Assembly: GCA_021779635.1 (NCBI GenBank)
Contig: JAJYAH010000076.1
Location: 1,021 to 15,110 of the forward strand
DNA: 14,090 nucleotides
From: Pseudomonadota bacterium
GTDB taxonomy: Bacteria; Pseudomonadota; Alphaproteobacteria; Rhizobiales; Xanthobacteraceae
Reading direction: 5' to 3'
The translations under genes were made by a program, and so were the position numbers. The notes under the pieces are model-generated. The model ran no database searches. It was not told the origin of the DNA and saw only the letters and a list, made by a program, of their open reading frames with translations. This document shows positions 2,264 through 14,090 of this stretch, piece after piece; within the stretch, counting starts at the first letter, position 1, and each line of letters opens with the position of its first letter.

Positions 2264-3700
2264 CTATCGCTTGGGCGATACGAAATGATCCTCGACGCTT
2301 GCAGTGTTTCCAGTGGCCGTGTCGGTCACCTTGATCTCGACGTCGGTGGAGTTCGGGCGATCCGCCGCGCCTGCCACCTGCACCGACAGGCGGATTTCGC
2401 GCGTCTGATCCGTTCCGACTTCGACGATCTCCGTGCCATCGGCTCCACGTTCGATGCCTGCGACGTGCAAGGCCGCGCCCGGCAAGCCGGAGACTTCCAG
2501 CCTGAATTTCCGGTCGGCGCCCTTGTTCAGAATACGCACGGTGTAGTCGTTTCGAACGCTGCCATCCGCCAGCAGCACATAGAGCGGATTGCGTTCGTGA
2601 AGCACGTTGACGCCGATGGAGCTTCGGGTCGCCAGCGCATACAGCATGATGCCGCCGACCAGCGCGATGATGCAAGCATAGAGAATCGTCCGCGCCCGGA
2701 TAACGCGATAGATCGGCGGTTTGCCCGCCAGCCGCCGCTGGCCGTTGATGTCGGTATCGTAGGCGATCAGGCCTGACGGCCGGCCGATCTCGCTCATGAT
2801 GGTGTCGCAGGCGTCGATGCACAGGCCGCACTGGATGCAGCCGAGCTGGATTCCATCGCGAATATCCACCCCTGTGGGGCAGACGTTGATGCATTGGTGG
2901 CAATCGATGCAGTCACCGGCCGGCTCGCCATGGTGGCGCAATTGTTCGGCTTTCTTGACGGACACTCGGGGTTCGCCGCGGTCGCGGCGATAGGTGACAT
3001 TGAGCGCCCACTCGTCGGTCAGCGCGGCCTGAATCCGCGGCCACGGACACATGTAAATGCAGACCTGCTCGCGCGCATGGCCGGCAAAAGTGTAGGTGGT
3101 GGCGGTCAGAATGGCGATCCACAGATAGGCGACGAACGGCGCCTGAAACGTCGCCAGATCCTTGACCAGGGTCGGCGCATCGGCAAAGTAAAGAACCCAG
3201 GCTCCGCCGGTCCACCACGCGATCATCAGCCAAATTGCATGTTTGGTTACGGCTTGGCGGATGTGCGTGAACGTCCATCCTCGCTTGTCGCTCATGATCC
3301 GTTCGCGGCGGTCGCCTTCGACAAGGCGCTCCACTGCATAGAACAGATCCGTCCAGATCGTCTGCGGGCACATGTAGCCGCACCACACCCGGCCGGCCAC
3401 GGCGTTCATCAGAAACAAGGTCATCGCGGCGATGATCAGCAGGCCGGTGAAATAGTAGACTTCCTGCGGCCAAAGCTCGATGAAGAAGAAATAGAACCGT
3501 CGATGCGGGAAATCGACAAGCACGGCCTGGCTGGGCAGGCCAGGTCCGCGATGCCAGCGAACGAAGGGCAGCAGGTAGTAGGTCGCCAAGGTGACGCCAA
3601 GGATCGCCCATTTGATGCGGCGAAACTTGCCTCGGACGGCCTGCGGATACACCTTCTTGCGGGCCGCGTAGAGGGGACCTTCTATGATGGTTTCGTTCAT
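2264..3700 (-). CDS. ccoG: Cytochrome c oxidase accessory protein CcoG (FixG/RdxA)
   Basis: A 478-residue membrane iron-sulfur protein that in other bacteria reduces and handles copper for assembly of the CuB centre of cbb3-type oxidase. Five membrane segments are evident at about residues 31-50, 82-102, 155-172, 188-207 and 336-357. Two CxxxCP motifs (C107/C111 and C214/C218) lie at membrane ends. An 8-cysteine ferredoxin domain with two 4Fe-4S signatures follows: C264, C267, C270, C274 and C288, C291, C294, C298. The C-terminal 110 residues form the periplasmic Ig-like domain of the family. The frame can begin at a TTG at 3712, but the ATG at 3700 (MNETIIEGP) fits better; neither has a strong ribosome site. 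It lies 115 bp downstream of the DUF2892 gene on the same strand, distal in the sqr gene line. No ccoNOPQ, ccoH, ccoI or ccoS genes are beside it, which is unusual because ccoG normally starts the ccoGHIS cluster. Confidence 0.95.
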   Translation of the reverse strand: MNETIIEGPLYAARKKVYPQAVRGKFRRIKWAILGVTLATYYLLPFVRWHRGPGLPSQAVLVDFPHRRFYFFFIELWPQEVYYFTGLLIIAAMTLFLMNAVAGRVWCGYMCPQTIWTDLFYAVERLVEGDRRERIMSDKRGWTFTHIRQAVTKHAIWLMIAWWTGGAWVLYFADAPTLVKDLATFQAPFVAYLWIAILTATTYTFAGHAREQVCIYMCPWPRIQAALTDEWALNVTYRRDRGEPRVSVKKAEQLRHHGEPAGDCIDCHQCINVCPTGVDIRDGIQLGCIQCGLCIDACDTIMSEIGRPSGLIAYDTDINGQRRLAGKPPIYRVIRARTILYACIIALVGGIMLYALATRSSIGVNVLHERNPLYVLLADGSVRNDYTVRILNKGADRKFRLEVSGLPGAALHVAGIERGADGTEIVEVGTDQTREIRLSVQVAGAADRPNSTDVEIKVTDTATGNTASVEDHFVSPKR

Positions 3701-3799
3701 GGCGGCCGACAATCCAGCTATTCACGCAAACCGTGCGGGGCTCGAGGCGATCTTCAGTAAACCGTGTGCGGAGTTCTCGCTTTGCGATAGCTCAAGCAA

Positions 3800-3814
3800 C
3801 GGCCTGCACGGCCG
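3800..3814 (-). terminator. Short GC hairpin after the DUF2892 stop (possible attenuator)
   Basis: CGGCC (3800-3804) pairs with GGCCG (3810-3814) around a five-base loop, directly downstream of the minus-strand TGA at 3816-3818. No T-run follows on the minus strand, so at most partial termination between the sqr-trxC-DUF2892 unit and ccoG is implied. Weak call. Confidence 0.25.
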
Positions 3815-3815
3815 A

Positions 3816-4019
3816 TCATGAAAACGCGTTGCCGCCTCGCAGGCCGAGCTTCCTGAACACGATCGCGGCCGGACAAAATCCGGTGAACGCCGACTGGATC
3901 ATGTTCAGTCCGGCAAACGCCGTCAGCAGGTACCAATAGGGGCTGACCAGCCAGCCGAGCGCGAGGCCGAGCAGCACCACACATCCGGCGAAGGTAAGAA
4001 CGGCTTTATCGATATTCAT
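3816..4019 (-). CDS. DUF2892 (YgaP transmembrane-domain-like) small inner-membrane protein
   Basis: A 67-residue protein with two hydrophobic helices (about residues 8-24 and 27-45) and the family signature FTGFCPAAIVFRKLGL near the C-terminus. It belongs to the DUF2892 family, which is the membrane anchor of the rhodanese YgaP in E. coli and is often found as a free-standing small protein beside sulfur-handling genes. The cysteine in GFCP (residue 49) is the conserved one. The start ATG at 4019 is preceded by an AAGGA ribosome site about eight bases upstream, and the gene begins 28 bp after trxC, so it belongs to the same operon. No rhodanese domain is fused here. A role in holding or passing sulfane sulfur at the membrane is inferred from context only. 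Confidence 0.85.
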   Translation of the reverse strand: MNIDKAVLTFAGCVVLLGLALGWLVSPYWYLLTAFAGLNMIQSAFTGFCPAAIVFRKLGLRGGNAFS

Positions 4020-4047
4020 GACGTGTTCCTTTGTCTTGGTTCAAAAA

Positions 4048-4494
4048 TCATTGGGCCCGGGCGAGCCCGGTCATTGTCCATGCGACGATGGCCTTGGCGT
4101 CCATCGCTCCTGACGTTCGCGCAATCTCGCGGCCGCCCTGCATCAATAGAAGTGTCGGGATGCCGCTGATCGCCAGGCGCGACGAGACCGAGGGCGCGGT
4201 ATCGGCGTTCAATTTCAGCAGGCGAACCCGGGGTTCAAGCTCCCGGGCGGCGCGTTCGAACATCGGCGCCATCGCGCGGCAGGGACCGCACCACGGCGCC
4301 CAGACATCGACGAGAACCGGGATGTCGCTGTGCGCCACGTGGCGGCCGAAACCCGCTTCGTCGACCTCGATCGGATGGCCGCCGAAGATAGGCTGGTGGC
4401 ACGATCCGCACCGCGCGGCGGTCAGAGTCCGTTCGGCGGGCAGCCGGTTGATCTTCCCGCAATGCCCACAGACGATTTGGTGGCTCGCGCTCAT
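4048..4494 (-). CDS. trxC: Thioredoxin TrxC (thioredoxin 2) with N-terminal zinc ribbon
   Basis: A 148-residue thioredoxin-2. The N-terminal zinc ribbon is given by C9xxC12 and C29xxC32. The thioredoxin fold follows with the active site WAPWCGPC (C69 and C72) and the cis-proline in GIPT (P113). There is no signal peptide, so it acts in the cytoplasm. TrxC proteins are thiol-disulfide reductases typically tied to oxidative stress, and thioredoxins can also reduce protein and low-molecular-weight persulfides. The ATG at 4494 overlaps the sqr stop in an ATGA arrangement, so the two are translationally coupled and very probably work together. One reasonable role is reducing per- or polysulfides formed by the oxidoreductase, or recycling the disulfide form of the divergently encoded sensor; both are inference. 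The frame runs far upstream across sqr, but that extension is an antisense-free frame shadow and not coding. Confidence 0.94.
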   Translation of the reverse strand: MSASHQIVCGHCGKINRLPAERTLTAARCGSCHQPIFGGHPIEVDEAGFGRHVAHSDIPVLVDVWAPWCGPCRAMAPMFERAARELEPRVRLLKLNADTAPSVSSRLAISGIPTLLLMQGGREIARTSGAMDAKAIVAWTMTGLARAQ

Positions 4495-5777
4495 GTCCCC
4501 GTCTTGACCTCCTTGATCTTCGCGATGTTGAGCTTGTCCAGCAGGAAACGCTCGTAGAACGGCTCGCTTTCGCCGCGGCGGATTTTGCGCAGGAAGTATT
4601 TCTCGAAGGCGACCTTGGCGAGATGAACCCATTCGCCCTTGGAGGACCAGTTGACGTTGCGGGGAGGGATCTGCGGCTGTGCCAGGAAGGCGACGCCGGA
4701 ATCGCCAAAGTCGGCAAGACAGATCGCGTTCCAGGTCGGTTGTGCCGACGGTGTCTGGCCTCGCAGCAGCGAGCCGATGTTCATGGCCGTCGCGGTGACC
4801 ATCGACTCGATCATGAATCCGGTCTTCGGCACGCCGACCGGAACCGGGGTCGCGCCGACCGGTGCGATCGCCACGCAAACTCCGATCGCAAAGATATTTG
4901 GAAACGCCGGATTGCGCTGGTGCTTGTCGACAACGACAAAGCCACGGGGGTTGGTGAGCTTCTCGATGCCCCTGACGGCACCGACGCCGCGGAATGCGGG
5001 CAGCATCATCGAATAGGAGAACGGCAGCTCGTGAGTCTTCCGGACCGAACCGTCGTCCGCTATCTCCTCGACCGACATCTTTCCCGGCTCGACATTCTTG
5101 ACGCGGGCGTTGGTGATCCATTTGACATGCTTCTCGCGCATCTCGCTTTCAAGCAGGCCCTTGGTGTCGCCGACGCCGTCAAGCCCGAGATGTCCGATAT
5201 AGGGCTCGGAAGTGACGAAGGTCATCGGCACACGGTCGCGCAGCTTGCGCCGGCGCAACTCGGTTTCCAGGATGAACAGGAATTCGTAGGCCGGACCGAA
5301 GCACGACGCTCCCTGGACGGCGCCGATCACGACCGGTCCCGGATTGGCCGCGAGCTTCTCGAATGCTTCCTTGGCGTGCGTGGCGTGATCGACATGGCAG
5401 ATCGATTGCGTATTGCCGTCCGGCCCGAGCCCCGGAATCTCGTCGAAGGCAAGCTCCGGACCGGTGGCGACGACCAGATAATCGTAATCGATCGATGCGC
5501 CGTCGGCGAGCTCGACGCGGTTTTCCGCCGGATGTACGCGTTGCGCACCTTGTGTCAGCAGGCGAATGCCCTTGCGCTTCATGATATCGACCAGGTCGAT
5601 TTCAATATCGCCGCGCTTGCGCCAGCCGATCGCCACCCAGGGATTGGAGGGTACGAAGTGATAGACCGGCCCTTGCGATATCACGGTCAGGCGGTCGTCC
5701 TTTCTCAATTGCGGCAGCAATTCATAGGCCATCAGCGTTCCGCTGAGACCGGCTCCGATAACAACAACTTCCGCCAT
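4491..5777 (-). CDS. sqr: Sulfide:quinone oxidoreductase (FAD-dependent)
   Basis: A 428-residue flavoprotein of the disulfide-oxidoreductase fold. It oxidises sulfide at the cytoplasmic membrane, passes electrons to the quinone pool and produces per- or polysulfide sulfur. The FAD-binding GxGxxG is at residues 8-13 (IGAGLSG), and a second conserved block is ATGPELAF. All three redox cysteines are present: C127 in QSICHVDHA, C159 in GASCFGPAYEF and C353 in WNAICLADFGD. The spacing and surrounding sequence closely match, from memory, the Acidithiobacillus ferrooxidans enzyme. The C-terminal amphipathic region (WVHLAKVAFEKYFLRK) fits the membrane-anchoring part. An extra cysteine, C301, lies near the quinone-side loop. 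The frame extends to 5819, but the ATG at 5777 has a GGAGG five bases upstream (5783-5787) and starts directly at the FAD motif. It is the first gene of the leftward operon and divergent from the ArsR-type regulator. Confidence 0.95.
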   Translation of the reverse strand: MAEVVVIGAGLSGTLMAYELLPQLRKDDRLTVISQGPVYHFVPSNPWVAIGWRKRGDIEIDLVDIMKRKGIRLLTQGAQRVHPAENRVELADGASIDYDYLVVATGPELAFDEIPGLGPDGNTQSICHVDHATHAKEAFEKLAANPGPVVIGAVQGASCFGPAYEFLFILETELRRRKLRDRVPMTFVTSEPYIGHLGLDGVGDTKGLLESEMREKHVKWITNARVKNVEPGKMSVEEIADDGSVRKTHELPFSYSMMLPAFRGVGAVRGIEKLTNPRGFVVVDKHQRNPAFPNIFAIGVCVAIAPVGATPVPVGVPKTGFMIESMVTATAMNIGSLLRGQTPSAQPTWNAICLADFGDSGVAFLAQPQIPPRNVNWSSKGEWVHLAKVAFEKYFLRKIRRGESEPFYERFLLDKLNIAKIKEVKTGT

Positions 5778-5848
5778 GATAGCCTCCGTTTCCTGCGTTC
5801 CTGGGTGCGGTTGCGCCAATTTGAACCTGGCTTGTTCTACCGTGCGTG

Positions 5849-5877
5849 TTGACTATATATTCGAACTATCGTATATA
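5849..5877 (+). promoter_or_regulatory. Strong sigma-70-type promoter for the ArsR-type regulator operon
   Basis: TTGACT (5849-5854), exactly 17 bases, then TATATA (5872-5877) give a near-consensus housekeeping promoter. Predicted initiation about seven bases past the -10 falls at 5884-5885, right at the ATG chosen for the regulator, implying a leaderless message. Confidence 0.65.
5854..5877. promoter_or_regulatory. Candidate BigR/SqrR-type operator shared by both divergent operons
   Basis: TATATA at 5854-5859 and TATATA at 5872-5877 are symmetrical arms separated by 12 bases in an AT-rich patch inside an otherwise GC-rich genome. The arms are the -10 boxes of the two opposing promoters, so one bound dimer would block both. 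BigR and SqrR proteins are known to bind AT-rich imperfect palindromes overlapping promoters. The assignment to this regulator is inferred from position. Confidence 0.5.
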
Positions 5878-5882
5878 CGCAA
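5854..5882 (-). promoter_or_regulatory. Candidate sqr operon promoter
   Basis: On the minus strand TTGCGT (5882-5877), a 17-base gap and TATATA (5859-5854) form a plausible promoter. The -10 is good and the -35 weak. Predicted initiation near 5847 would leave a leader of about 70 bases before the sqr ATG. A weak -35 is what one would expect of a promoter kept low and opened by loss of a repressor. Confidence 0.5.
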
Positions 5883-5884
5883 GT

Positions 5885-6217
5885 ATGAAAATAGATATTG
5901 CAGCCATGGAATCTGCCGCCGATCAGGCGAGCGATCTGTTGAAGTCACTCTCCAACCGTCACCGGTTGCTGATTATCTGCCAGCTGATCGACGGCGAGCG
6001 ATCGGTCGGCGATCTCGCCGGGTTCCTGAAGCTTCGCGATTCCACGGTGTCACAGCATCTTGCTCTCCTTCGCAAAGATGGCTTGGTGTCCGCGCGACGC
6101 GATGCCCAGACGATTTACTACTCGATCGCAAGCGATCCCGCGCGCGAACTTCTAAAGACGCTTTATCAAGTCTATTGCGCGCCCCCGAAAGTCTCGAAGG
6201 CCAAGCGTAAATTATGA
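5885..6217 (+). CDS. bigR: ArsR-family persulfide-responsive repressor (BigR/SqrR type)
   Basis: A 110-residue winged-helix ArsR-family repressor. The DNA-recognition region is DSTVSQHLALLRKDGLVSARR (about residues 52-72), followed by the wing DAQTIYYS. Two cysteines, C32 (LLIICQLIDGERS) and C98 (YQVYCAPP), stand 66 residues apart. That is the spacing of the C42/C108 and C41/C107 sensing pairs that I recall for BigR and SqrR. In those proteins reactive sulfur species link the pair through an oxidised sulfur bridge and release DNA. The metal-binding CxC motif of arsenic sensors is absent. The frame opens at a GTG (5846), but the ATG at 5885 fits the promoter placement; an ATG at 5906 is the other candidate. 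No ribosome site is visible before either. It is the first gene of the rightward operon and divergent from sqr, so it probably represses both sides. Confidence 0.9.
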   Translation: MKIDIAAMESAADQASDLLKSLSNRHRLLIICQLIDGERSVGDLAGFLKLRDSTVSQHLALLRKDGLVSARRDAQTIYYSIASDPARELLKTLYQVYCAPPKVSKAKRKL

Positions 6218-6320
6218 AGACGTGCGCGACAGCACCTTGAGGCAGGTCAATATCCTCGTAATGAACTTCAATGAAATGTCGCAACAAATGCCGCGGGTGC
6301 GGCGTGGAATGGGCATACCG

Positions 6321-7310
6321 ATGCGCAGATTGATTCTATCGAGCCTGGTCGTGGTTGCGGCATTGGGCGCGGTTCCCGCGGACGCGGAAGTCCTCACCGT
6401 CGCATCGAGGTCGGTGGCCGACGAGAAGGCGGTGTTTGCCACGGTCGAGAGCATCAGCGTGGTGCCGGCGCGCGGGCGAATCGGCGGCACCGTCGTCCAG
6501 CTCAACGTCAGGGAAGGCGATTCGGTCACGAGCGGCCAGGCGATTGCAGCCATCGGCGACGAGAAGCTCGCTTTGCAGATGAAGTCGCTCGATGCGCAGA
6601 TCGGTGCGTTGCAGGCGCAGTCGGACCAGGCGCAAATCGATTTTACGCGAACCGAAGGGCTGGTGGACCGCGGCATACTTCCGCGCGTCAAACTGGACGA
6701 GGCCCGGACCGCCCTCAATGTCGCGGAAAACGGGCTGCGAGCGAAGACTGCCGAGCGAGCGGTGGTCCAGCAGCAGTTCACCGAAGGCCAGGTGCTTGCG
6801 CCCGCCGGCGGACGCGTGTTGAAGAAGCTGGTGGCGATGGGTTCCGTCGTGCTGCCTGGCGACCCCATTGCGATGATCGCGCAACAGGATTTCAAGCTGC
6901 GCCTGCGGGTGCCGGAACGCCACGCCCGCTTTCTGAAAGCCGGCGACAAGATCCGCGTCGACGGCGCCGAGTTCGGCGACCAGACCTCCAAGTCGGGCGT
7001 GATCGATCTGGTCTATCCGCAGATCGAGGATGGCCGCGTCATAGCCGATGCCACGGTTGCAGGGCTTGGGGAGTATTTCGTCGGCGATCGCCTCAGGGTC
7101 TGGATTTCGGGCGGAACGCGGACGGCCTTCGTGATCCCGTCGAGCTATGTGACGACCCGCTTCGGCATCGACTACGTCCATATCCGCCAGGCCGGGCGCA
7201 CCATCGACGTGCCGGTGCAGCGCGGCCGCGATTTGCCTTCTCCTGACCTTCCCAGCGGCCTTGAAATCCTGTCAGGCCTTCGCGTTGGTGACCAACTGGT
7301 GCAACCTTGA
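6321..7310 (+). CDS. RND efflux periplasmic adaptor subunit (HlyD/AcrA family)
   Basis: A 329-residue membrane-fusion protein linking an inner-membrane RND pump to an outer-membrane channel. The N-terminus MRRLILSSLVVVAALGAVPADA is a Sec signal peptide with likely cleavage near residue 22. There is no lipobox cysteine, so it should be a soluble periplasmic adaptor. The biotinyl-lipoyl halves are at about residues 48-82 (RGRIGGTVVQLNVREGDSVTSGQ) and 155-190 (APAGGRVLKKLVAMGSVVLPG). They flank a short alpha-hairpin of about 70 residues, then come beta-barrel and membrane-proximal domains to the C-terminus. Start choice is uncertain: in-frame ATGs also occur at 6261 and 6309, and a GTG at 6222, five bases after the regulator stop. 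I prefer 6321 because it begins exactly at the signal peptide. Its stop overlaps the start of the pump gene. The short hairpin suggests a heavy-metal or small-molecule rather than AcrA-like pump, but this is weak evidence. Confidence 0.88.
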   Translation: MRRLILSSLVVVAALGAVPADAEVLTVASRSVADEKAVFATVESISVVPARGRIGGTVVQLNVREGDSVTSGQAIAAIGDEKLALQMKSLDAQIGALQAQSDQAQIDFTRTEGLVDRGILPRVKLDEARTALNVAENGLRAKTAERAVVQQQFTEGQVLAPAGGRVLKKLVAMGSVVLPGDPIAMIAQQDFKLRLRVPERHARFLKAGDKIRVDGAEFGDQTSKSGVIDLVYPQIEDGRVIADATVAGLGEYFVGDRLRVWISGGTRTAFVIPSSYVTTRFGIDYVHIRQAGRTIDVPVQRGRDLPSPDLPSGLEILSGLRVGDQLVQP

Positions 7311-10300
7311 ATCTCGGCTTGTCGGGACGGCTCACCCGGGCGACCATCAATTCGCCGCTGACGCCGCTGTTTCTGCTCGCGTCGCTGGTCGTCGGCCTGA
7401 TCGCCGTCGTCGTCATCCCGCGCGAGGAAGAGCCCCAGATCAGCGTTCCCATGGTCGACATCCGCGTCAACGCGGACGGACTGCGCGGGCCCGATGCAGT
7501 TGAGCTCGTCACCAAGCCTCTCGAGGCGATCGTCAAGGGCATCGATGGCGTGGAGCATGTCTACAGCCAGACCGAAGACGATCGCGTCATGGTCACCGCG
7601 CGCTTCCTGGTCGGAACGAAGTCCGATGACGCGATCCTGCGGGTTCATGAGAAGATCCGGGCCAATCTGGACCGGATCCCGGTTGGCATTCCGGAGCCCC
7701 TGATCGTTGGCCGAGGCATCAACGACGTCGCCGTCACCACGCTCACGCTTTCGCCGAAGCCGTTTGCTGCCGATCGATGGTCGGACAAAGACCTCTATGA
7801 ACTCGCAGACAAATTGCGCGCCGAATTGACAAAGGTCGACAGTATCGGCCTGACTTACATCTCCGGCGGCGGAGCCCAGCAGATCAGGGTCGAGCCCGAT
7901 CCAGAGAAGCTGTCGCTGTTTGGCGTCACGCTCCAGCAACTCGTCGCCAAGGTGAAGGACGCCAATCGTTCGTTCCTGGCGGGACAGGTCCGCGACGCTG
8001 GTATCGTTCGCAGCGTCTCGGCCGGCCAGACCTTGTCGGGTATTCCCGACATTGGCCTGCTGCTGATTTCGACGCGGGACGGCCGGCCTGTTTATGTCAA
8101 GGACGTGGCCGCGGTGGTCATCGGACCGAGCGCGGCGGAGCACCGCGTCTGGAACGATGCGCCGGACGGCAAGGGCAGCTGGAACCGAGGTCCCGCGGTC
8201 ACCCTGGCGCTGGCCAAGCGGGCGGGCGCCAACGCGGTGGTCGTATCCGAGGATATCGCGCACAGGCTCGACGGGCTGAAGTCACGGCTGATCCCCGATG
8301 ACGTCGACGTCACGGTGACCCGCGACTATGGCGAGACAGCCAACGAGAAAGCCAACGAACTGCTGTTTCACCTCGGTCTCGCGACGATCTCGATCGTCGT
8401 TCTGATTGCGGTCGCGATCGGCTGGCGCGAGGCGCTGGTCACTCTCGTGGTGATCCCGACGACGATTCTGCTGACGCTGTTTGCCGCCAATCTGATGGGC
8501 TACACCATCAATCGCGTCAGCCTGTTCGCGCTGATTTTCTCGATCGGTATCCTGGTCGACGATGCCATCGTGGTGGTCGAGAACATCGCCCGCCATTGGG
8601 GAATGAAGGACGGGCGGCCCCGCCTGCAGGCCACGATCGAGGCGGTCGCCGAAGTCGGCAATCCAACCGTGGTCGCGACCTTGACGGTCGTCGCGGCGCT
8701 GCTGCCGATGCTGTTCGTCTCCGGACTGATGGGCCCCTACATGGCGCCGATTCCGGCCAATGCCTCCGCGGCCATGCTGTTTTCGTTCTTTGTCGCGATG
8801 GTGGTGGCGCCTTGGCTGATGCTGCGGCTGGCGCCGAAGGACGGCGCGGTTCCGGTTCACGCGGCCCATGACGAAGGCGTGCTCGGGCGCATCTATCGGC
8901 GCATCGCGACGCCGATCGTCAGCAGCAAACGCTCGGCCTGGATATTCCTGATGAGCGTCGGCGTCGCGACGTTGCTGTCGATGGCCCTGTTCGCGACGAA
9001 ATCCGTGACGGTCAAATTGCTGCCGTTCGACAACAAATCCGAGATCGCGGTCATGGTCGATCTGCCGGAGGGGGCAAGCCTCGAGGACACCGAGCGCACA
9101 TTGTTCGCGGCGGCGGATATTGCGCGCGGACTGCCCGAAATCACTTCGGTGCAGTCCTACGCCGGCACGCCGGCGCCCTTCAATTTCAACGGTCTCGTGC
9201 GCCACTATTATGTTCGCGAAAGACCTGAACTGGGCGAATTGCAGGTCAATCTGGCCGCGCGCGGGGATCGCAAGCGGGCAAGCCACGACATTGCGCTCGA
9301 TCTGCGACAGCGCCTCAAGGTCGTCAGCGTTCCCGCAGGCACCAGCATCAAGGTCGTCGAGGTGCCGCCTGGGCCGCCGGTGCTTGCTACCCTGCTGGCT
9401 GAAATCTATGGGCCCGATGCGGCAACGCGACGGGCGGTCACCGGCGAGATCAAAAAGCTCTTCGCCGAAGTACCGTTCATCGTCGATATCGATGATTCGA
9501 TCGGCGAGAAGCGGCCACGGCTGCGGCTGTCGATCGACCAGGAACGGCTTGAGTTTTTTGGTGTCGAGCAACGTGACGTCTACGACACCGTCCAGACGCT
9601 GTTCGGCGGCGTATCGATCGGCTATTCCCATCGCGGCGAAGACCGCAATCCGATCGAGATCGCGGTCAGGCTGCCGAAGCATTATCTCGCCTGGACCGAG
9701 GCCCTGGCGTCAACGCCTGTTCCCGCGAACACGCTGCCGGGCAACAAAACCGTTGTCGAACTCGGACAAGTCGTCAAGACGACCATCGAGGAGGGATCTC
9801 CGGTCATCTTCCGGCGCGACGGCCGCTTTGCCGATATGGTGATGGCCGAACTCGCTGGCCGCTTCGAGGCGCCGCTCTACGGCATGCTCGAAGTGGCCAA
9901 GCGCGTCGACGCCCACGACTGGGGCGCGTTGCCAAAGCCGGTCATCAGCCTGCACGGACAGCCGTCCGACGAGTCCCATCCGACACTATTGTGGGACGGC
10001 GAGTGGGAAATCACCTATGTGACCTTCCGCGACATGGGCGCGGCCTTTGGCGCGGCGATCCTCGGCATCTACGTGCTGGTCGTGGCCCAGTTCCGCAGCT
10101 TCAAGCTTCCGCTCGTCATCCTGACGCCGATTCCTCTCACCCTGATCGGAATTCTGGTTGGGCATTGGCTGTTGGGCGCGCCTTTCACCGCGACCTCGAT
10201 GATCGGCTTCATCGCGCTCGCGGGCATCATCGTGCGCAATTCGATCCTGCTCGTTGACTTCATTCGTCACAGTGGCGGACAGGGCAAGACGCTGCGCGAC

Positions 10301-10522
10301 GTGGTGCTGGAAGCCGGCGCCGTGCGCTTCAAGCCGATCCTCCTCACCGCGCTGGCGGCGATGATCGGCGCCGCCACCATTTTGCTCGATCCGATTTTTC
10401 AGGGCCTGGCGATCTCGCTGCTGTTCGGCCTTGCGTCCTCAACGCTGCTGACGGTCCTCGTCATCCCCGCGATTTACATTGCGCTACGCCAGCCCTCACC
10501 GCAGACATCACCCAGCAAGTAA
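7307..10522 (+). CDS. RND efflux transporter permease (HAE-1/AcrB-like)
   Basis: A 1071-residue proton-driven inner-membrane pump of usual length, with the twelve-helix duplicated RND plan. The first helix (about residues 20-38) is followed by a periplasmic pore loop, then helices 2-6 from about 355 to 510. The TM4 proton-relay pair is present as GILVDDAIVVVEN (D418 and D419). The second half ends with helices 8-12 from about 915. In TM10 the block GIIVRNSILLVDF has arginine (R977) where AcrB has lysine 940. The start is TTG at 7307, overlapping the adaptor stop as TTGA; no other start preserves the family N-terminus. The substrate cannot be read from the sequence. The acidic TM4 pair separates it from CzcA-type metal pumps with the DFG..DGA variant, and the context suggests a sulfur-related or stress-generated substrate. 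No outer-membrane factor gene accompanies it. Confidence 0.93.
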   Translation: MNLGLSGRLTRATINSPLTPLFLLASLVVGLIAVVVIPREEEPQISVPMVDIRVNADGLRGPDAVELVTKPLEAIVKGIDGVEHVYSQTEDDRVMVTARFLVGTKSDDAILRVHEKIRANLDRIPVGIPEPLIVGRGINDVAVTTLTLSPKPFAADRWSDKDLYELADKLRAELTKVDSIGLTYISGGGAQQIRVEPDPEKLSLFGVTLQQLVAKVKDANRSFLAGQVRDAGIVRSVSAGQTLSGIPDIGLLLISTRDGRPVYVKDVAAVVIGPSAAEHRVWNDAPDGKGSWNRGPAVTLALAKRAGANAVVVSEDIAHRLDGLKSRLIPDDVDVTVTRDYGETANEKANELLFHLGLATISIVVLIAVAIGWREALVTLVVIPTTILLTLFAANLMGYTINRVSLFALIFSIGILVDDAIVVVENIARHWGMKDGRPRLQATIEAVAEVGNPTVVATLTVVAALLPMLFVSGLMGPYMAPIPANASAAMLFSFFVAMVVAPWLMLRLAPKDGAVPVHAAHDEGVLGRIYRRIATPIVSSKRSAWIFLMSVGVATLLSMALFATKSVTVKLLPFDNKSEIAVMVDLPEGASLEDTERTLFAAADIARGLPEITSVQSYAGTPAPFNFNGLVRHYYVRERPELGELQVNLAARGDRKRASHDIALDLRQRLKVVSVPAGTSIKVVEVPPGPPVLATLLAEIYGPDAATRRAVTGEIKKLFAEVPFIVDIDDSIGEKRPRLRLSIDQERLEFFGVEQRDVYDTVQTLFGGVSIGYSHRGEDRNPIEIAVRLPKHYLAWTEALASTPVPANTLPGNKTVVELGQVVKTTIEEGSPVIFRRDGRFADMVMAELAGRFEAPLYGMLEVAKRVDAHDWGALPKPVISLHGQPSDESHPTLLWDGEWEITYVTFRDMGAAFGAAILGIYVLVVAQFRSFKLPLVILTPIPLTLIGILVGHWLLGAPFTATSMIGFIALAGIIVRNSILLVDFIRHSGGQGKTLRDVVLEAGAVRFKPILLTALAAMIGAATILLDPIFQGLAISLLFGLASSTLLTVLVIPAIYIALRQPSPQTSPSK

Positions 10523-10533
10523 GGAGCCCTCTC

Positions 10534-10893
10534 ATGGAAAAGAACTATTCCGACATCACCAAGCGCATTTCCGGCGACCTGCGGAAACTGCGCCAGGACA
10601 TTCCCGACACCATGAAGGCCTTCTCGGCCTTGGCGCAGGCGGCGACCCGCGAAGGCGTGCTTGACAAGAAGACCAAGGAGCTGATTGCGCTGGCGATCGG
10701 CATTGCCACGCGCTGCGACGGCTGTATCGGCTTCCATACCGAGGCGCTGGTCAAGCTGGGCGCCACGCGCCAGGAAGTGGAGGAAACACTCGGCATGGCC
10801 GTCTACATGGGCGGCGGTCCGTCGCTGATGTATGCCGCCGATGCGATATCCGCCTATGAACAATTTGAGAAGCAGCTGAACGTTGCCGCCTAG
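10534..10893 (+). CDS. AhpD-like carboxymuconolactone decarboxylase family protein
   Basis: A 119-residue single-domain protein of the CMD/AhpD fold. It carries the full catalytic pattern E-x11-CxxC-x3-H of AhpD-type thiol peroxidases or reductases: E49, C61, C64 and H68 (RCDGCIGFHTEALVKLGA). Family members form oligomers and use the CxxC pair to reduce peroxide or disulfide partners, with the histidine and glutamate relaying protons. True gamma-carboxymuconolactone decarboxylases lack the CxxC, so a decarboxylase role is unlikely. The start at 10534 has a GGAG (10523-10526) immediately after the pump stop, so it is translated from the same operon under the persulfide-type repressor. A function in oxidant or persulfide reduction during sulfide stress is inferred. 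No signal peptide is present; it is cytoplasmic. Confidence 0.92.
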   Translation: MEKNYSDITKRISGDLRKLRQDIPDTMKAFSALAQAATREGVLDKKTKELIALAIGIATRCDGCIGFHTEALVKLGATRQEVEETLGMAVYMGGGPSLMYAADAISAYEQFEKQLNVAA

Positions 10894-11641: not shown

Positions 11642-11959
11642 CTAATGCCTTTTTAGACTAAGAATATATGCGATCAGGTCGTTTGAATCGGCGCTGGAAA
11701 TTATGAAGTCGGGCATATTCTCGTGGTTTGAATGAAGAAACGCATTCAAGGAAATTCCCGTGGTCGATGGCAGGTCAGCGATGCTCTGAAAGCTTGGAGG
11801 ATCAGCTTTGTCGGTAAGGGTCATCGGCAGAACGCGATGGCATGAGCTGCATCGCTTCGTCGCGATCGCGCGACCAGACACTGCATCGCCAACTGACTGA
11901 GCGAGTGCTGGAAACTGTGCCGCTAAAATCGCCGCAGCGACTAAGCATGGTAGTTTCAT
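11642..11959 (-). CDS. Small periplasmic class I cytochrome c
   Basis: A 105-residue precursor with a signal peptide (MKLPCLVAAAILAAQFPALA, cleavage near residue 20) and a mature domain of about 85 residues. The haem-attachment motif is CSSCH (37-41). The distal methionine ligand is probably M82 in ENMPDF, and the C-terminal helix DLIAYILSLKR is typical of class I cytochromes c. It would shuttle electrons in the periplasm. The frame can extend to a GTG at 11977, which has a weak AGAGA upstream; the ATG at 11959 begins at the signal peptide but has no clear ribosome site, so the start is unsettled. It stands alone, divergent from the small gene at 12195, with two inverted repeats between them. 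A donor role to an oxidase or reductase cannot be decided. Confidence 0.85.
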   Translation of the reverse strand: MKLPCLVAAAILAAQFPALAQSVGDAVSGRAIATKRCSSCHRVLPMTLTDKADPPSFQSIADLPSTTGISLNAFLHSNHENMPDFIISSADSNDLIAYILSLKRH

Positions 11960-12019
11960 CCAACGCACGGTAATCACCCTGTCTCTTCATGGCGGGAAGG
12001 CCGGAATTGATCGGCGCTC

Positions 12020-12039
12020 GTCAAACCGGCGCGTTTGAC
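12020..12039. promoter_or_regulatory. Inverted repeat GTCAAAC-N6-GTTTGAC, candidate operator
   Basis: Perfect 7-bp arms (12020-12026 and 12033-12039) with a six-base spacer lie 43-81 bases upstream of the two possible cytochrome c starts. Each arm contains TTGAC reading outward. The geometry fits binding of a dimeric repressor or activator; the regulator is unknown. Confidence 0.45.
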
Positions 12040-12087
12040 CAACCACCCCCCTCTTTTCTACCTTGGCGCAGCAAAATTCCAGCTTTA

Positions 12088-12107
12088 TATGTCGACTCCC
12101 CGACATA
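12088..12107. promoter_or_regulatory. Inverted repeat TATGTCG-N6-CGACATA, candidate operator
   Basis: Perfect 7-bp arms (12088-12094 and 12101-12107) with a six-base spacer lie about 88 bases upstream of the small gene at 12195. The site overlaps a possible plus-strand -10 (TATATG, 12086-12091) preceded at 17 bases by TTGGCG (12063-12068), so occupancy would block that start. Confidence 0.45.
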
Positions 12108-12194
12108 ACGGGCATCTGGTTTTACTCTTTACCGTCCTTTGTTGCCGGTAACTGAGGGTGTCGTGCTCCCGTCCTGCCTGCAGGGGAATCGACC

Positions 12195-12380
12195 ATGGAT
12201 AAATTCCTGCACGAAGAGAACCTGAAATTACTCCACAAACGACTGACGGAAACGACCGACGAAAAACAACGTCAGGTCCTTGAAAATCTCATTGCCGAAC
12301 GCGAGACCAGTTGCCGCGAGTGGCAGCTCAAACCCGGTCGAGGATTGGCGCAATCCCGAGCCAGGGGGCGAGCGTTATGA
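12195..12380 (+). CDS. Small conserved-type hypothetical protein coupled to the methyltransferase
   Basis: A 61-residue soluble protein without signal peptide. Residues 1-36 form a charged amphipathic helix pattern (MDKFLHEENLKLLHKRLTE, then KQRQVLENLIAERE). This resembles short proteins of Bradyrhizobium relatives that begin MDxFxxxENL and end near LLAEE. The last 25 residues (CREWQLKPGRGLAQ onward) look unlike that family, are Arg/Gly-rich, and may be drift or an extension past the ancestral end. The start has a strong AGGGGAA ribosome site. The stop overlaps the next start (ATGA at 12377-12380), so the pair is translationally coupled. Function is unknown. Confidence 0.7.
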   Translation: MDKFLHEENLKLLHKRLTETTDEKQRQVLENLIAERETSCREWQLKPGRGLAQSRARGRAL

Positions 12381-13210
12381 GCGATGCGACTTCGCAGACC
12401 ATATATTTTTACGATCGGCATCCCATCTCGTACGAGATCATCCTTGCGAAACTACGCGCAAGCCGTGGCCACCTCGATGGCCTGCGTCCGGAAGAATTAT
12501 TTCCACATGACCAGGATCATTATGGTGGTGTTGCAGCCACGGATGAATTGGCGCGCGGGGCACAGATCGGTCATGGAACGCGCGTAGCCGATTTCTGTGC
12601 CGGTCTGGGCGGCACCGTGCGCTATCTTGCTTGCAAATATGGCGCCAATGTCACCGGTATTGAATTGACTCCGGCGCGTGTCGCAGGCGCGCAAGAGCTG
12701 ACTAAACGCGTTGGTCTTCAGGAAGTCGCCCGTGTCATCGAGGGCAACGTATTGGAGACTCCACTGGCTGACGCGAGTATGGACGCCGTTGTCAGCCAAG
12801 AGGCATTTTGTCATGTGCCCGACCTGAAAAGAGCGCTTGCCGAGGCCTTTCGGATTCTAGGAAAAGACGGCAGGTTGGCGTTCACAGACTGGGTAGCCAA
12901 TCACCCGCTCGCCGCCGACGATGCACAATTGATGTGGGAAGGGATGGCCATTCAGCCTCTGCGGTCAATCCCCGAATATCGCAATCTGGTCGAGAGCGTC
13001 GGTCTGAGGGTGATATCGTCAAAAGATTTGACGGAGGATTGGGAACCAATTCTGAAAGAGCGCCTGGCAATGTATCAACGGCTGCGTGAAGAAGCCCGGC
13101 AAGCTGGGACCCCAATGGGGCACGATGCGTTTCACAAGTCCTACATTCGATTTGTTGAACTGATTCAAGAGCGCAAGATGGGCGGCGTCAGGATAGTGGC
13201 GACGAAGTAG
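12377..13210 (+). CDS. Class I SAM-dependent methyltransferase
   Basis: A 277-residue Rossmann-fold methyltransferase. Motif I is VADFCAGLGG (70-79), a variant of DxGxGxG. The acidic residue at the end of strand 2 is E96 (GIELTPAR), a GNVLETPLADASMD block (123-136) follows, and the post-motif SQEAFCHVPD (140-149) resembles enzymes acting on small amines such as sarcosine/glycine or phosphoethanolamine N-methyltransferases. The N-terminal extension (YDRHPISYEIILAKL) and FPHDQDHYGG probably form a substrate lid. The exact substrate is not assignable. The start ATG at 12377 is preceded by GGGGGCG and overlaps the upstream stop; the frame runs further up to 12311 but only across the preceding gene. 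Base composition is visibly more AT-rich than the RND operon, a hint of separate origin. It converges on the truncated haemoglobin gene with 144 bp between. Confidence 0.88.
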   Translation: MSDATSQTIYFYDRHPISYEIILAKLRASRGHLDGLRPEELFPHDQDHYGGVAATDELARGAQIGHGTRVADFCAGLGGTVRYLACKYGANVTGIELTPARVAGAQELTKRVGLQEVARVIEGNVLETPLADASMDAVVSQEAFCHVPDLKRALAEAFRILGKDGRLAFTDWVANHPLAADDAQLMWEGMAIQPLRSIPEYRNLVESVGLRVISSKDLTEDWEPILKERLAMYQRLREEARQAGTPMGHDAFHKSYIRFVELIQERKMGGVRIVATK

Positions 13211-13284
13211 CAGGCGCGTGATTGAGGAACGCCATAGCACCAACGTCTTATTTTGACCCAGACGGCGTGAGAGCCCCATCGATG

Positions 13285-13309
13285 CCGTGATTCCCTTTCT
13301 GAATCGCGG
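13285..13309. terminator. 9-bp hairpin between convergent genes
   Basis: CCGTGATTC (13285-13293) pairs with GAATCGCGG (13301-13309), with one G-T wobble, around a seven-base loop. It lies between the methyltransferase and haemoglobin stop codons and may end both transcripts. There is no T-run on either side. Confidence 0.4.
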
Positions 13310-13354
13310 TGGGGGGATCAGAGGTTTCGTTCAGAGGGCGAAGGGGTGCTTCGT

Positions 13355-13768
13355 TCAGGCATTGCGCATCAGGTTGGCCAGGCGCAAAAAGCCACGGTCC
13401 ATGACGGCGCGCATGTCGGCCGGCAGCCCGCATTCGTCCATCGCGCGACGCATGCAGATCATCCATTCGTCACGCTCGACGTCGCCGATCGCATAAGGAC
13501 GATGCGCCGACATGATGCAGCGGTGCTCGGGCCGTTTGAAATAGAGCGGCGGCCCACCGAGCCAGCCGCTCAGGAACTCGAACAGAAGCTGGCGGATCGG
13601 AGCCAGATCCCGACCGTGCATAGCGCGGATGCGGGCGGCGCCGGGATCGGTGTCCAGGATCTCGTAGAAGCGGTCGGCCAGCCGCCTTACCGTCGCCTCG
13701 CCGCCGATTTGTTCATACGGCGTTACTTCGATTTTTGGGGGGTCAGCTGTCGATTTGCTGGCGGTCAT
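13355..13768 (-). CDS. Group II truncated haemoglobin
   Basis: A 137-residue two-over-two globin. Family marks are YEQIGGEATVRRLADRFYEIL, with the B10 tyrosine probably Y35, the block FLSGWLGGPPLY (65-76), the proximal haem ligand H89 within AHRPYAIG, and the G8 tryptophan W102 in DEWMICM. Y-B10 with W-G8 is the group II (TrHbO-like) pattern. Group II globins bind oxygen and NO and are often linked to NO or oxidative protection under low oxygen. The proximal region has unusual substitutions for the family, CIMSAH where RLRxRH is common. The ATG at 13768 is supported by a GATGAG about eight bases upstream. A perfect FixK/FNR site sits 63 bases upstream of the start, consistent with induction at low oxygen. 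Confidence 0.92.
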   Translation of the reverse strand: MTASKSTADPPKIEVTPYEQIGGEATVRRLADRFYEILDTDPGAARIRAMHGRDLAPIRQLLFEFLSGWLGGPPLYFKRPEHRCIMSAHRPYAIGDVERDEWMICMRRAMDECGLPADMRAVMDRGFLRLANLMRNA

Positions 13769-13824
13769 CGAATCTCATCCCAATCAATGCTTGATGAGGC
13801 AACATGTCATGCCGGGATTGCGCT

Positions 13825-13838
13825 TTGATTTGGATCAA
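13825..13838 (-). promoter_or_regulatory. FixK/FNR box upstream of the truncated haemoglobin gene
   Basis: TTGAT-TTGG-ATCAA is a perfect FNR-family palindrome. Its centre lies 63 bases above the minus-strand ATG at 13768. With the class II position of -41.5, transcription would begin near 13790 and leave a leader of about 22 bases containing the ribosome site. The minus-strand -10 is not obvious, as is common for activator-dependent promoters. Confidence 0.75.
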
Positions 13839-13935
13839 TGGGACGGATTCCTTCGACACCACGTCATCGCCTGTTGTATTTTAGTCCGCTGCCTGAATGC
13901 ATCTATCCGCTGCCTGCGGCGCCTCGGCCGCCGAT

Positions 13936-13949
13936 TTGACATAGATCAA
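13936..13949. promoter_or_regulatory. Second FixK/FNR box, probably for a gene to the right
   Basis: TTGAC-ATAG-ATCAA is a near-perfect FNR/FixK2 box 111 bases right of the first. It is too far from the haemoglobin gene for class II activation there. If read rightward, initiation would be near 13984 with a leader of about 100 bases to the possible TTG start at the edge. Direction is not settled. Confidence 0.65.
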
Positions 13950-14090
13950 AACCGCTATCGCGCGATGCGCCGCGGGCGTGCACCAAATGCTTCGCCCGAA
14001 GCAACCGCAATCGCGGCTGGACGCGCGGGCAACGTCGGCCGCCGCTTCGGATTTACGGCCCCTTAAGGACGAAGAGGTATTCTTGGATCC

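Follow-up and report, generated by a model that had tools for sequence, protein, structure and literature searches.

A divergent sulfide-gene locus in a Xanthobacteraceae bacterium as a probable local persulfide-response module with its own RND pump

Introduction

We analysed a stretch of 14,090 nucleotides (hereafter the window) from contig JAJYAH010000076.1 of a Pseudomonadota bacterium in the family Xanthobacteraceae. Its leftward strand carries the genes for sulfide:quinone oxidoreductase (SQR), thioredoxin TrxC, a DUF2892 protein and CcoG, and its rightward strand those for an ArsR regulator, a periplasmic adaptor, a permease of the resistance-nodulation-division (RND) family and an AhpD-like protein. 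Because a two-cysteine repressor of the BigR/SqrR type, a conserved divergent control element, and adaptor and pump genes directly downstream of the repressor gene occur together, we consider it fairly probable that the window holds a local module that responds to reactive sulfur (persulfide) and includes an RND pump, and that this pump would add to persulfide dioxygenase (PDO) and not replace it. An earlier note on this DNA had proposed that the pump stands where PDO usually does. The tie between the pump, the regulator and sulfide genes in that proposal held up, whereas the replacement of PDO did not, nor did the view that the locus is unusual through a missing rhodanese.

Sulfide-oxidizing cells make sulfane sulfur, which is a useful signal and is toxic in excess, and enzymes for sulfane sulfur are known. 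We know of no established tripartite exporter for it.

Results

Linkage of the pump to sulfur genes

Of 56 sampled relatives, 41 have at least one gene for DUF2892, SQR, rhodanese or PDO no more than 5 kb from the pump; among 40 other RND pumps, taken as controls from pump-bearing genomes, 1 does (Fisher 2.7e-13; the relatives are not independent, and the Fisher values in this study overstate certainty). Counted singly in the sampled relatives, DUF2892 was found in 40, SQR in 27, rhodanese in 16, PDO in 4 and the regulator in 40, and a regulator of this type or a sulfur gene was present in 46. These counts bear out the earlier note in tying the pump to a BigR/SqrR-type regulator and sulfide genes; the same genome search does not place the pump mostly away from sulfur genes, a result which that note had named as telling against its proposal.

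The sampled relatives are at least 60% identical to the window pump and come from evenly drawn genomes; a partial match of 460 residues (G465, 64%) was left out. The controls were hand-picked every few rows among at least roughly 155 rows of RND pump matches; they come from 13 pump-bearing genomes out of 20 searched, and their neighbourhoods were scored at the known pump coordinates. A second set, biased to close kin, consisted of the 80 best pump relatives in the genome collection (69-95% identical), 79 of which were counted; locus L055, with a split pump match, was left out. The gene models were built from these first 80 loci, and the PDO model from six regions. Depending on the search, 2-3 or up to 7 candidates were scored per genome, the stop-free stretch was used for relatives with a stop inside the match, and some regions end at contig edges (e.g. 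L139 and L149).

In the 79 close relatives, the genes within 5 kb of the pump were ArsR (74), DUF2892 (74), SQR (46), TrxC (34), AhpD-like (32), rhodanese (12) and PDO (2). Among 45 more distant loci (36-46% identical), hand-picked from 108 lower rows of matches, 24 were linked to sulfur genes. The pump was present at 62% identity or more in 24 of 241 evenly drawn alphaproteobacterial genomes. Among 397 Pseudomonadota genomes, 39 had it in full length with no less than 60% identity, which added 32 new genomes. An SQR of the Acidithiobacillus type, to which the window SQR belongs, was found in 10 of the 24 pump-bearing and 2 of the 217 pump-less alphaproteobacterial genomes (p 8e-10), and SQR lay within 5 kb of the pump in 8 of the 24.

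The 65 linked loci of the sampled and the more distant sets showed 42 gene orders, where extra paralogues and sets cut by an edge were counted as separate orders. Inherited synteny alone therefore does not explain the link, and the many gene orders suggest selection for co-location. In a quick tree of 106 rows (102 pumps of the wider family and 4 E. coli pumps; SH-aLRT support only), linkage was clustered: it changed 14 times, and shuffled rows averaged 29.7 changes.

Named relatives and plasmids

The closest relatives of the window locus are of Bradyrhizobium and Afipia types, a group to which the window most likely belongs, and a protein search gave at least 120 close relatives, the named ones being mostly Bradyrhizobium-type. 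The pump is carried by Paracoccus denitrificans PD1222 and Bradyrhizobium BTAi1. Three further named relatives were checked with the gene models of this analysis. On plasmid pPAN2 of Paracoccus pantotrophus, genes for PDO (annotated as MBL hydrolase), a YgaP-like domain, a membrane protein, a DUF6691 protein, a TIGR01244 sulfur transferase, ArsR, cytochrome c, DUF2892, the adaptor and the pump stand in a row, and a nearby flavoprotein matches the SQR model distantly (211 bits). The set of Azospirillum brasilense comprises SQR, DUF2892, the adaptor, the pump, rhodanese and ArsR; the adaptor gene beside the pump on its plasmid p2 (L282) is annotated as two pieces. In Sphingomonas MM-1, the plasmid pISP1, which is conjugative by its typing, carries a CMD protein, its own TolC, DUF2892, SQR, rhodanese, the adaptor, the pump and ArsR.

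Pump relatives were found on 51 plasmid records, of which 6 are predicted to be conjugative and 3 mobilizable. Plasmid relatives at 33-42% identity occur in Vibrio, Salinivibrio, Flammeovirga and the cyanobacteria Kovacikia and Pseudanabaena. Single checks of the distant loci L207 and L216 showed a TolC-type gene adjoining the pump set. L216 belongs to a group at 37-40% identity (L216-L219, L221, L223 and L224) with three consecutive rhodanese matches at the pump set, and is the sole member of that group checked for its own outer-membrane channel, which it has. Between the DUF2892 and pump genes of L206 lies a gene (12217-13959) for a pyridine nucleotide reductase with a fused rhodanese, of the persulfide or CoA-disulfide reductase type. 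In the Afipia loci L006 and L007, a distant flavoprotein that shares about 24% identity with the window SQR stands at the SQR position; it has a Tat-like leader as judged by eye.

The regulator and the divergent control element

The closest structures to the window regulator are HlyU, BigR and YgaV. Both sensing cysteines, which we take to be at the positions of C41 and C107 of SqrR, are present in it and in 119 of 133 aligned regulators. Its score with the NCBIfam BigR model was 85.8 bits, below the cut-off of 155, which makes the regulator a relative of BigR and not BigR itself. That the module is regulated by sulfane sulfur may be inferred from this kinship.

A 34-bp element, TTGACTATATATTCGAACTATCGTATATACGCAA, lies between the SQR and regulator genes. 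Two promoter-like sites, assigned by consensus with the hexamers read by eye, are mirrored on it. The rightward site consists of TTGACT (5849-5854), a spacer of 17 and TATATA (5872-5877), and the leftward site, toward SQR, of TTGCGT (5882-5877), a spacer of 17 and TATATA (5859-5854). Since both sites occupy the same 34 bases, one bound dimer would block both. The open reading frame (ORF) of the regulator opens at GTG 5846 and traverses the conserved element, so that ATG 5885 is the likely start; the automatic call of this gene may be 13 codons too long. The rightward site ends 7 bases upstream of ATG 5885, and the regulator message would therefore be nearly leaderless.

A conserved SqrR-like box, ATTC-N8-GTAT, is located inside the element at 5859-5874 and is a candidate operator; it is one letter off the SqrR box as given in PMC9774250 (ATTC-N8-GAAT). 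The SqrR of PMC10128140, as presented there, is an unrelated sigma-54 regulator of the same name and was set aside. At up to 9 mismatches, the element was found in 61 of the 75 loci with the regulator among the first 80, compared with none of 375 shuffled regions (mononucleotide shuffles), and was missing from the other 14. At up to 3 mismatches, each of 10 whole genomes searched gave one match, and all 10 fall at this locus as judged by coordinates or by an identical site sequence; the reversed control pattern gave no match in the same 10 genomes. No sign of a wider regulon came from this search, in which weaker sites would escape the threshold of 3 mismatches. The repressor thus looks like a local regulator. 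At the level of sequence, the co-location and the shared control element are well supported.

Sequence features of the pump

The window pump shares its protein family with AcrB, MdtB/C and CusA of E. coli, and its proton relay positions (D418, D419, R977, R1007 and T1014) are shared with AcrB and MdtB/C. The aspartate pair of transmembrane helix 4 (D418, D419) and the basic residue of transmembrane helix 10 (R977), as in HAE-type pumps, are present in 56 of 56 sampled relatives, while the position of AcrB K940 holds arginine in the pump. Most of the AcrB aromatic pocket is absent: F136 is replaced by V, F615 by L and F617 by V, each in 56/56, although F610 is retained in 54/56. The features of HME pumps (CusA/CzcA) are also lacking, with neither a complete methionine triad nor the CusA relay. 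The position of CusA M573 is V in 43/56, that of M623 is M in 12/56 and that of M672 is a gap in 56/56; the window pump itself, with M at the first and L at the second, keeps one of the three. The pump scored 255 with the metal-pump model TIGR00914, the cut-off of which is 701. The replacement of both pocket and triad would argue against a classic drug or metal pump.

Neither the pump nor the adaptor in the window contains a cysteine. Cysteine-free pumps made up 42 of the 56 family members and 2 of the 40 controls, where cysteines were counted in the model-matched stretch for the former and in the whole search match for the latter. A cysteine-free pump would make sense if its cargo attacked thiols.

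Relation to persulfide dioxygenase

PDO was present in 107 of the 241 alphaproteobacterial genomes, as called with a Blh model at E 1e-40, a threshold which divergent PDO types may miss. It was found in 11 of the 24 pump-bearing and 96 of the 217 pump-less genomes (Fisher p = 1.0). Since the presence of PDO is independent of the pump among these genomes, the pump as a general substitute for PDO was rejected. The pump accompanies this type of SQR, not the absence of PDO. The four sampled relatives with PDO within 5 kb are L142, L157, L160 and L162, and PDO adjoins the pump set in P. pantotrophus as well. The earlier note had also called the locus unusual for lacking rhodanese, which does not agree with the 16 sampled relatives that have one beside the pump. 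What sets the module apart is the pump family itself, not a missing PDO.

Gene content of the window

The features of the window are listed in Table 1. The layout given in the earlier note, with its named genes, strands and shared control region, was confirmed for every gene. Four bases separate the repressor gene from the adaptor ORF, which in turn shares 4 bases with the pump gene.

Table 1. Features of the locus, with window positions and the basis of assignment
Feature	Position	Strand	Basis
CcoG (cbb3 oxidase assembly protein)	2264..3712	-	TIGR02745 553.6 bits, cut-off 316.7
DUF2892, YgaP-like transmembrane domain PF11127, 67 aa	3816..4019	-	Pfam 38.3 bits, cut-off 25.3
TrxC (zinc-ribbon thioredoxin 2, CGPC)	4048..4494	-	NF008229 126.4 bits, cut-off 125; Pfam
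SQR, Acidithiobacillus type	4491..5819	-	PDB 3sz0 E 3e-144
34-bp divergent control element	5849..5882	.	Conservation between SQR and regulator
ArsR repressor, BigR/SqrR/YgaV type	5885..6217	+	Structure matches; two sensing cysteines
RND periplasmic adaptor (membrane fusion protein)	6222..7310	+	TIGR01730 104.6 bits, cut-off 94.9
RND permease, 1071 aa	7307..10522	+	PF00873 474.9 bits
AhpD-like / CMD-domain protein, CxxC...H core	10534..10893	+	PDB 5dik E 6e-44

The SQR matches the Acidithiobacillus SQR over its full length, with the three cysteines of SIC, GASCFGPAYE and NAIC aligned, as is typical of a Type I SQR. ATG 5777 is likelier than TTG 5819 as its start. Cys49, an invariant cysteine of the DUF2892 domain, occurs in all 138 of the sequences aligned, E. 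coli YgaP among them. In the AhpD-like protein, the core CDGCIGFH, aligned to PDB 5dik, has the CxxC and histidine of AhpD; the gene is lineage-restricted, with 7 of the 56 sampled relatives having it within 5 kb of the pump. CcoG is accessory (within 5 kb in 23 of the 79 close relatives).

A six-frame scan with the models built in this analysis found no PDO or rhodanese in the window, and a Pfam scan of 14 window proteins found no TauE or YeeE family. A full YgaP architecture, i.e. a rhodanese domain with PF11127, is likewise absent: PF11127 is present and rhodanese, which belongs to the wider module in relatives, is missing. The earlier note had listed PDO, rhodanese and TauE as lacking, which agrees with these scans; two corrections are needed: DUF2892 is PF11127, so that half of YgaP, a protein made of rhodanese and membrane parts, is present after all, and the shared control region holds the specific conserved element at 5849-5882. 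Two neighbouring regions adjoin the module. To its left, at 17-2223, are the C-terminal part of an Lhr-type helicase and a metallophosphoesterase, which are apparently unrelated, and to its right, at 11642-13768, a small cytochrome c, an S-adenosylmethionine methyltransferase and a truncated-type globin.

Discussion

Comparison with known systems

The BigR operon of Xylella and Agrobacterium and the SqrR regulon of Rhodobacter capsulatus are among the known systems nearest to this locus. The window has in common with them a two-cysteine ArsR repressor beside sulfide genes and a SqrR-like box. It differs in having an RND adaptor and pump after the repressor and no PDO, rhodanese or TauE/YeeE, and without PDO in the cluster it is not a PDO-type BigR operon. 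In P. pantotrophus, a set of PDO, YgaP-like, YeeE-like and sulfurtransferase genes adjoins the pump set. The E. coli ygaV-ygaP pair shares the YgaV-type regulator and a YgaP membrane domain with the same cysteine. Rhodanese, the half of YgaP missing from the window, is a separate gene in some pump relatives, and no pump gene is found beside ygaVP in E. coli.

Two published studies touch on such pumps. One sentence of a 2025 paper states that sulfane-sulfur-responsive ArsR regulators seem to act on RND pump genes too, naming RND efflux pumps among likely regulator targets; the pump family, the control site, cysteine depletion and statistics are absent from its section 2.1 (PMC12423496). In Azospira suillum PS, as described in PMC5358917, a four-gene operon with an RND pump, an adaptor and SQR (Dsui_3440-3443) shows high expression under H2S and a fitness signal in Bar-seq, and the expression of a DUF2892 gene located at another place rises about 10-fold, findings that count in favour of the module reading; section 10 of that paper does not name a regulator.

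Weighing of the module reading

Several results weigh against our reading of the locus as a persulfide-response module. Azospira mutants without SQR, or without the entire operon, oxidized H2S at an unchanged rate, and in a mutant lacking the DUF2892 gene the onset of oxidation was no more than slightly delayed (PMC5358917). The unchanged oxidation would fit a role in tolerance and is no proof of it. The Azospira pump, which resembles the present one in the content of its operon, may or may not belong to the same family. Our literature search turned up no experiment on this pump, and no study of the substrate, control site or cysteine depletion of its family among the titles and beginnings of abstracts, most subscription papers and all preprints being outside its scope. 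Of the sampled relatives, 15 of 56 have no sulfur gene within 5 kb, 5 of these having an ArsR gene only, and in the tree none of the 12 pumps of one sister clade is linked; this is the clade with cysteines (1-6 each). The excess of linkage over the controls was obtained with models built on family loci, which favour matches near family pumps and may miss divergent versions near controls. RND pumps are generally cysteine-poor (E. coli AcrB has 2), and the cysteine argument is a matter of degree. Lys682, which in a distant alignment sits at the position of AcrB F664, a position we take to belong to the access pocket, can be counted in favour, since 64 of the 65 linked pumps keep it and no pump of the 12-member unlinked sister clade has it; yet it is one of 14 positions from a scan and is present in about half of all unlinked pumps (19/36). 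It marks the pump family more than the linkage to sulfur genes.

Alternative explanations

The pump could be an ordinary multidrug pump that is switched on by sulfane sulfur, like the reported pumps controlled by MarR-family regulators. Sulfane sulfur is reported to act on MarR-family multidrug regulators in other bacteria, and several sources label the protein AcrB or a multidrug pump. Since the aromatic trap of AcrB is replaced, though F610 is kept, and since sulfur genes adjoin the pump in 42 arrangements and cysteines are depleted in comparison with paralogues, this explanation is unlikely. The authors of the Azospira study propose that RND pumps rising under H2S export metal sulfides (PMC5358917, as stated there), and the pump may export metals or metal-sulfide complexes arising from sulfide and cell metals. 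The methionine at the CusA M573 position of the window pump and a weak match of the adaptor to the CzcB/NccB model (56.5 bits, cut-off 319.3) agree with such export. The AcrB-type pair D418/D419 with R977 in place of the CusA relay, the loss of the triad in the family and the low TIGR00914 score make it quite improbable.

That the pump takes the place of PDO as an outlet for the SQR product would be suggested by the window, which has no PDO, and by 7 of 12 related genomes without a strong Blh-type PDO match. As a rule it is largely refuted by the genome counts and by the PDO genes near the pump in the sampled relatives and Paracoccus, and we regard it as very improbable; in single lineages without PDO such a substitution could occur. 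Two PDO-like genes are found elsewhere in Bradyrhizobium BTAi1. In this strain (locus L275), a separate gene for a Blh-type PDO with a YgaP-like domain (G004:C1:3850535-3851690) is located about 45 kb from the pump cluster, and the strain therefore has both systems. Finally, the pump might move an unrelated compound and owe its place beside the sulfur genes to chance or horizontal transfer, a view with which the 15 unlinked relatives and the plasmid records are compatible. The close packing of the repressor, adaptor and pump genes in the window and the survival of the linkage through many rearrangements leave this with hardly any likelihood.

A possible mechanism

For the favoured persulfide-response module, the following course may be envisaged. 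At rest, a repressor dimer would cover both promoters. The activity of SQR, or sulfide from outside, would raise sulfane sulfur, upon which the repressor cysteines would become linked through sulfur and the repressor would be released. SQR would oxidize sulfide into the quinone pool to yield sulfane sulfur, and TrxC would return persulfides to the reduced state. At the membrane, sulfane sulfur would be carried by the YgaP-type protein, which has the invariant cysteine, and in relatives by rhodanese as well, and the proton-driven, cysteine-free pump would clear a sulfane-sulfur species or a sulfur-modified metabolite from the periplasm or the membrane through a TolC-type channel presumably encoded elsewhere. 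Sulfane sulfur or a sulfur-modified metabolite is our best guess of the pump substrate.

A bolder proposal, which we put forward only tentatively and which is rather less probable than not, is that these cysteine-free RND pumps form an ancient class of their own, dedicated to the export of sulfane sulfur as such, in the form of polysulfide, membrane-dissolved elemental sulfur or persulfidated small thiols. SQR and the YgaP-type protein would feed the pump, the invariant cysteine would hand sulfur to the pump side, and Lys682 would help to select an anionic or polarized sulfur substrate. If true, this would be, to our knowledge, the first tripartite exporter for zero-valent sulfur, and it might explain the extracellular sulfur from bacteria without sulfur globules.

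Significance

The finding is real and is broader than the earlier note had it, namely a conserved module, probably for the response to persulfide, that includes an RND pump. Through its tie to persulfide sensing, this conserved pump family offers a definite candidate for experiments, for which a control site, a marker residue and the tractable hosts P. denitrificans PD1222 and Bradyrhizobium BTAi1 are at hand. In genomes of this kind, sulfur tolerance may be the role of proteins annotated as "multidrug efflux pump AcrB". The partnership recurs across Pseudomonadota, and this little-studied class of pumps may help cells to survive reactive sulfur.

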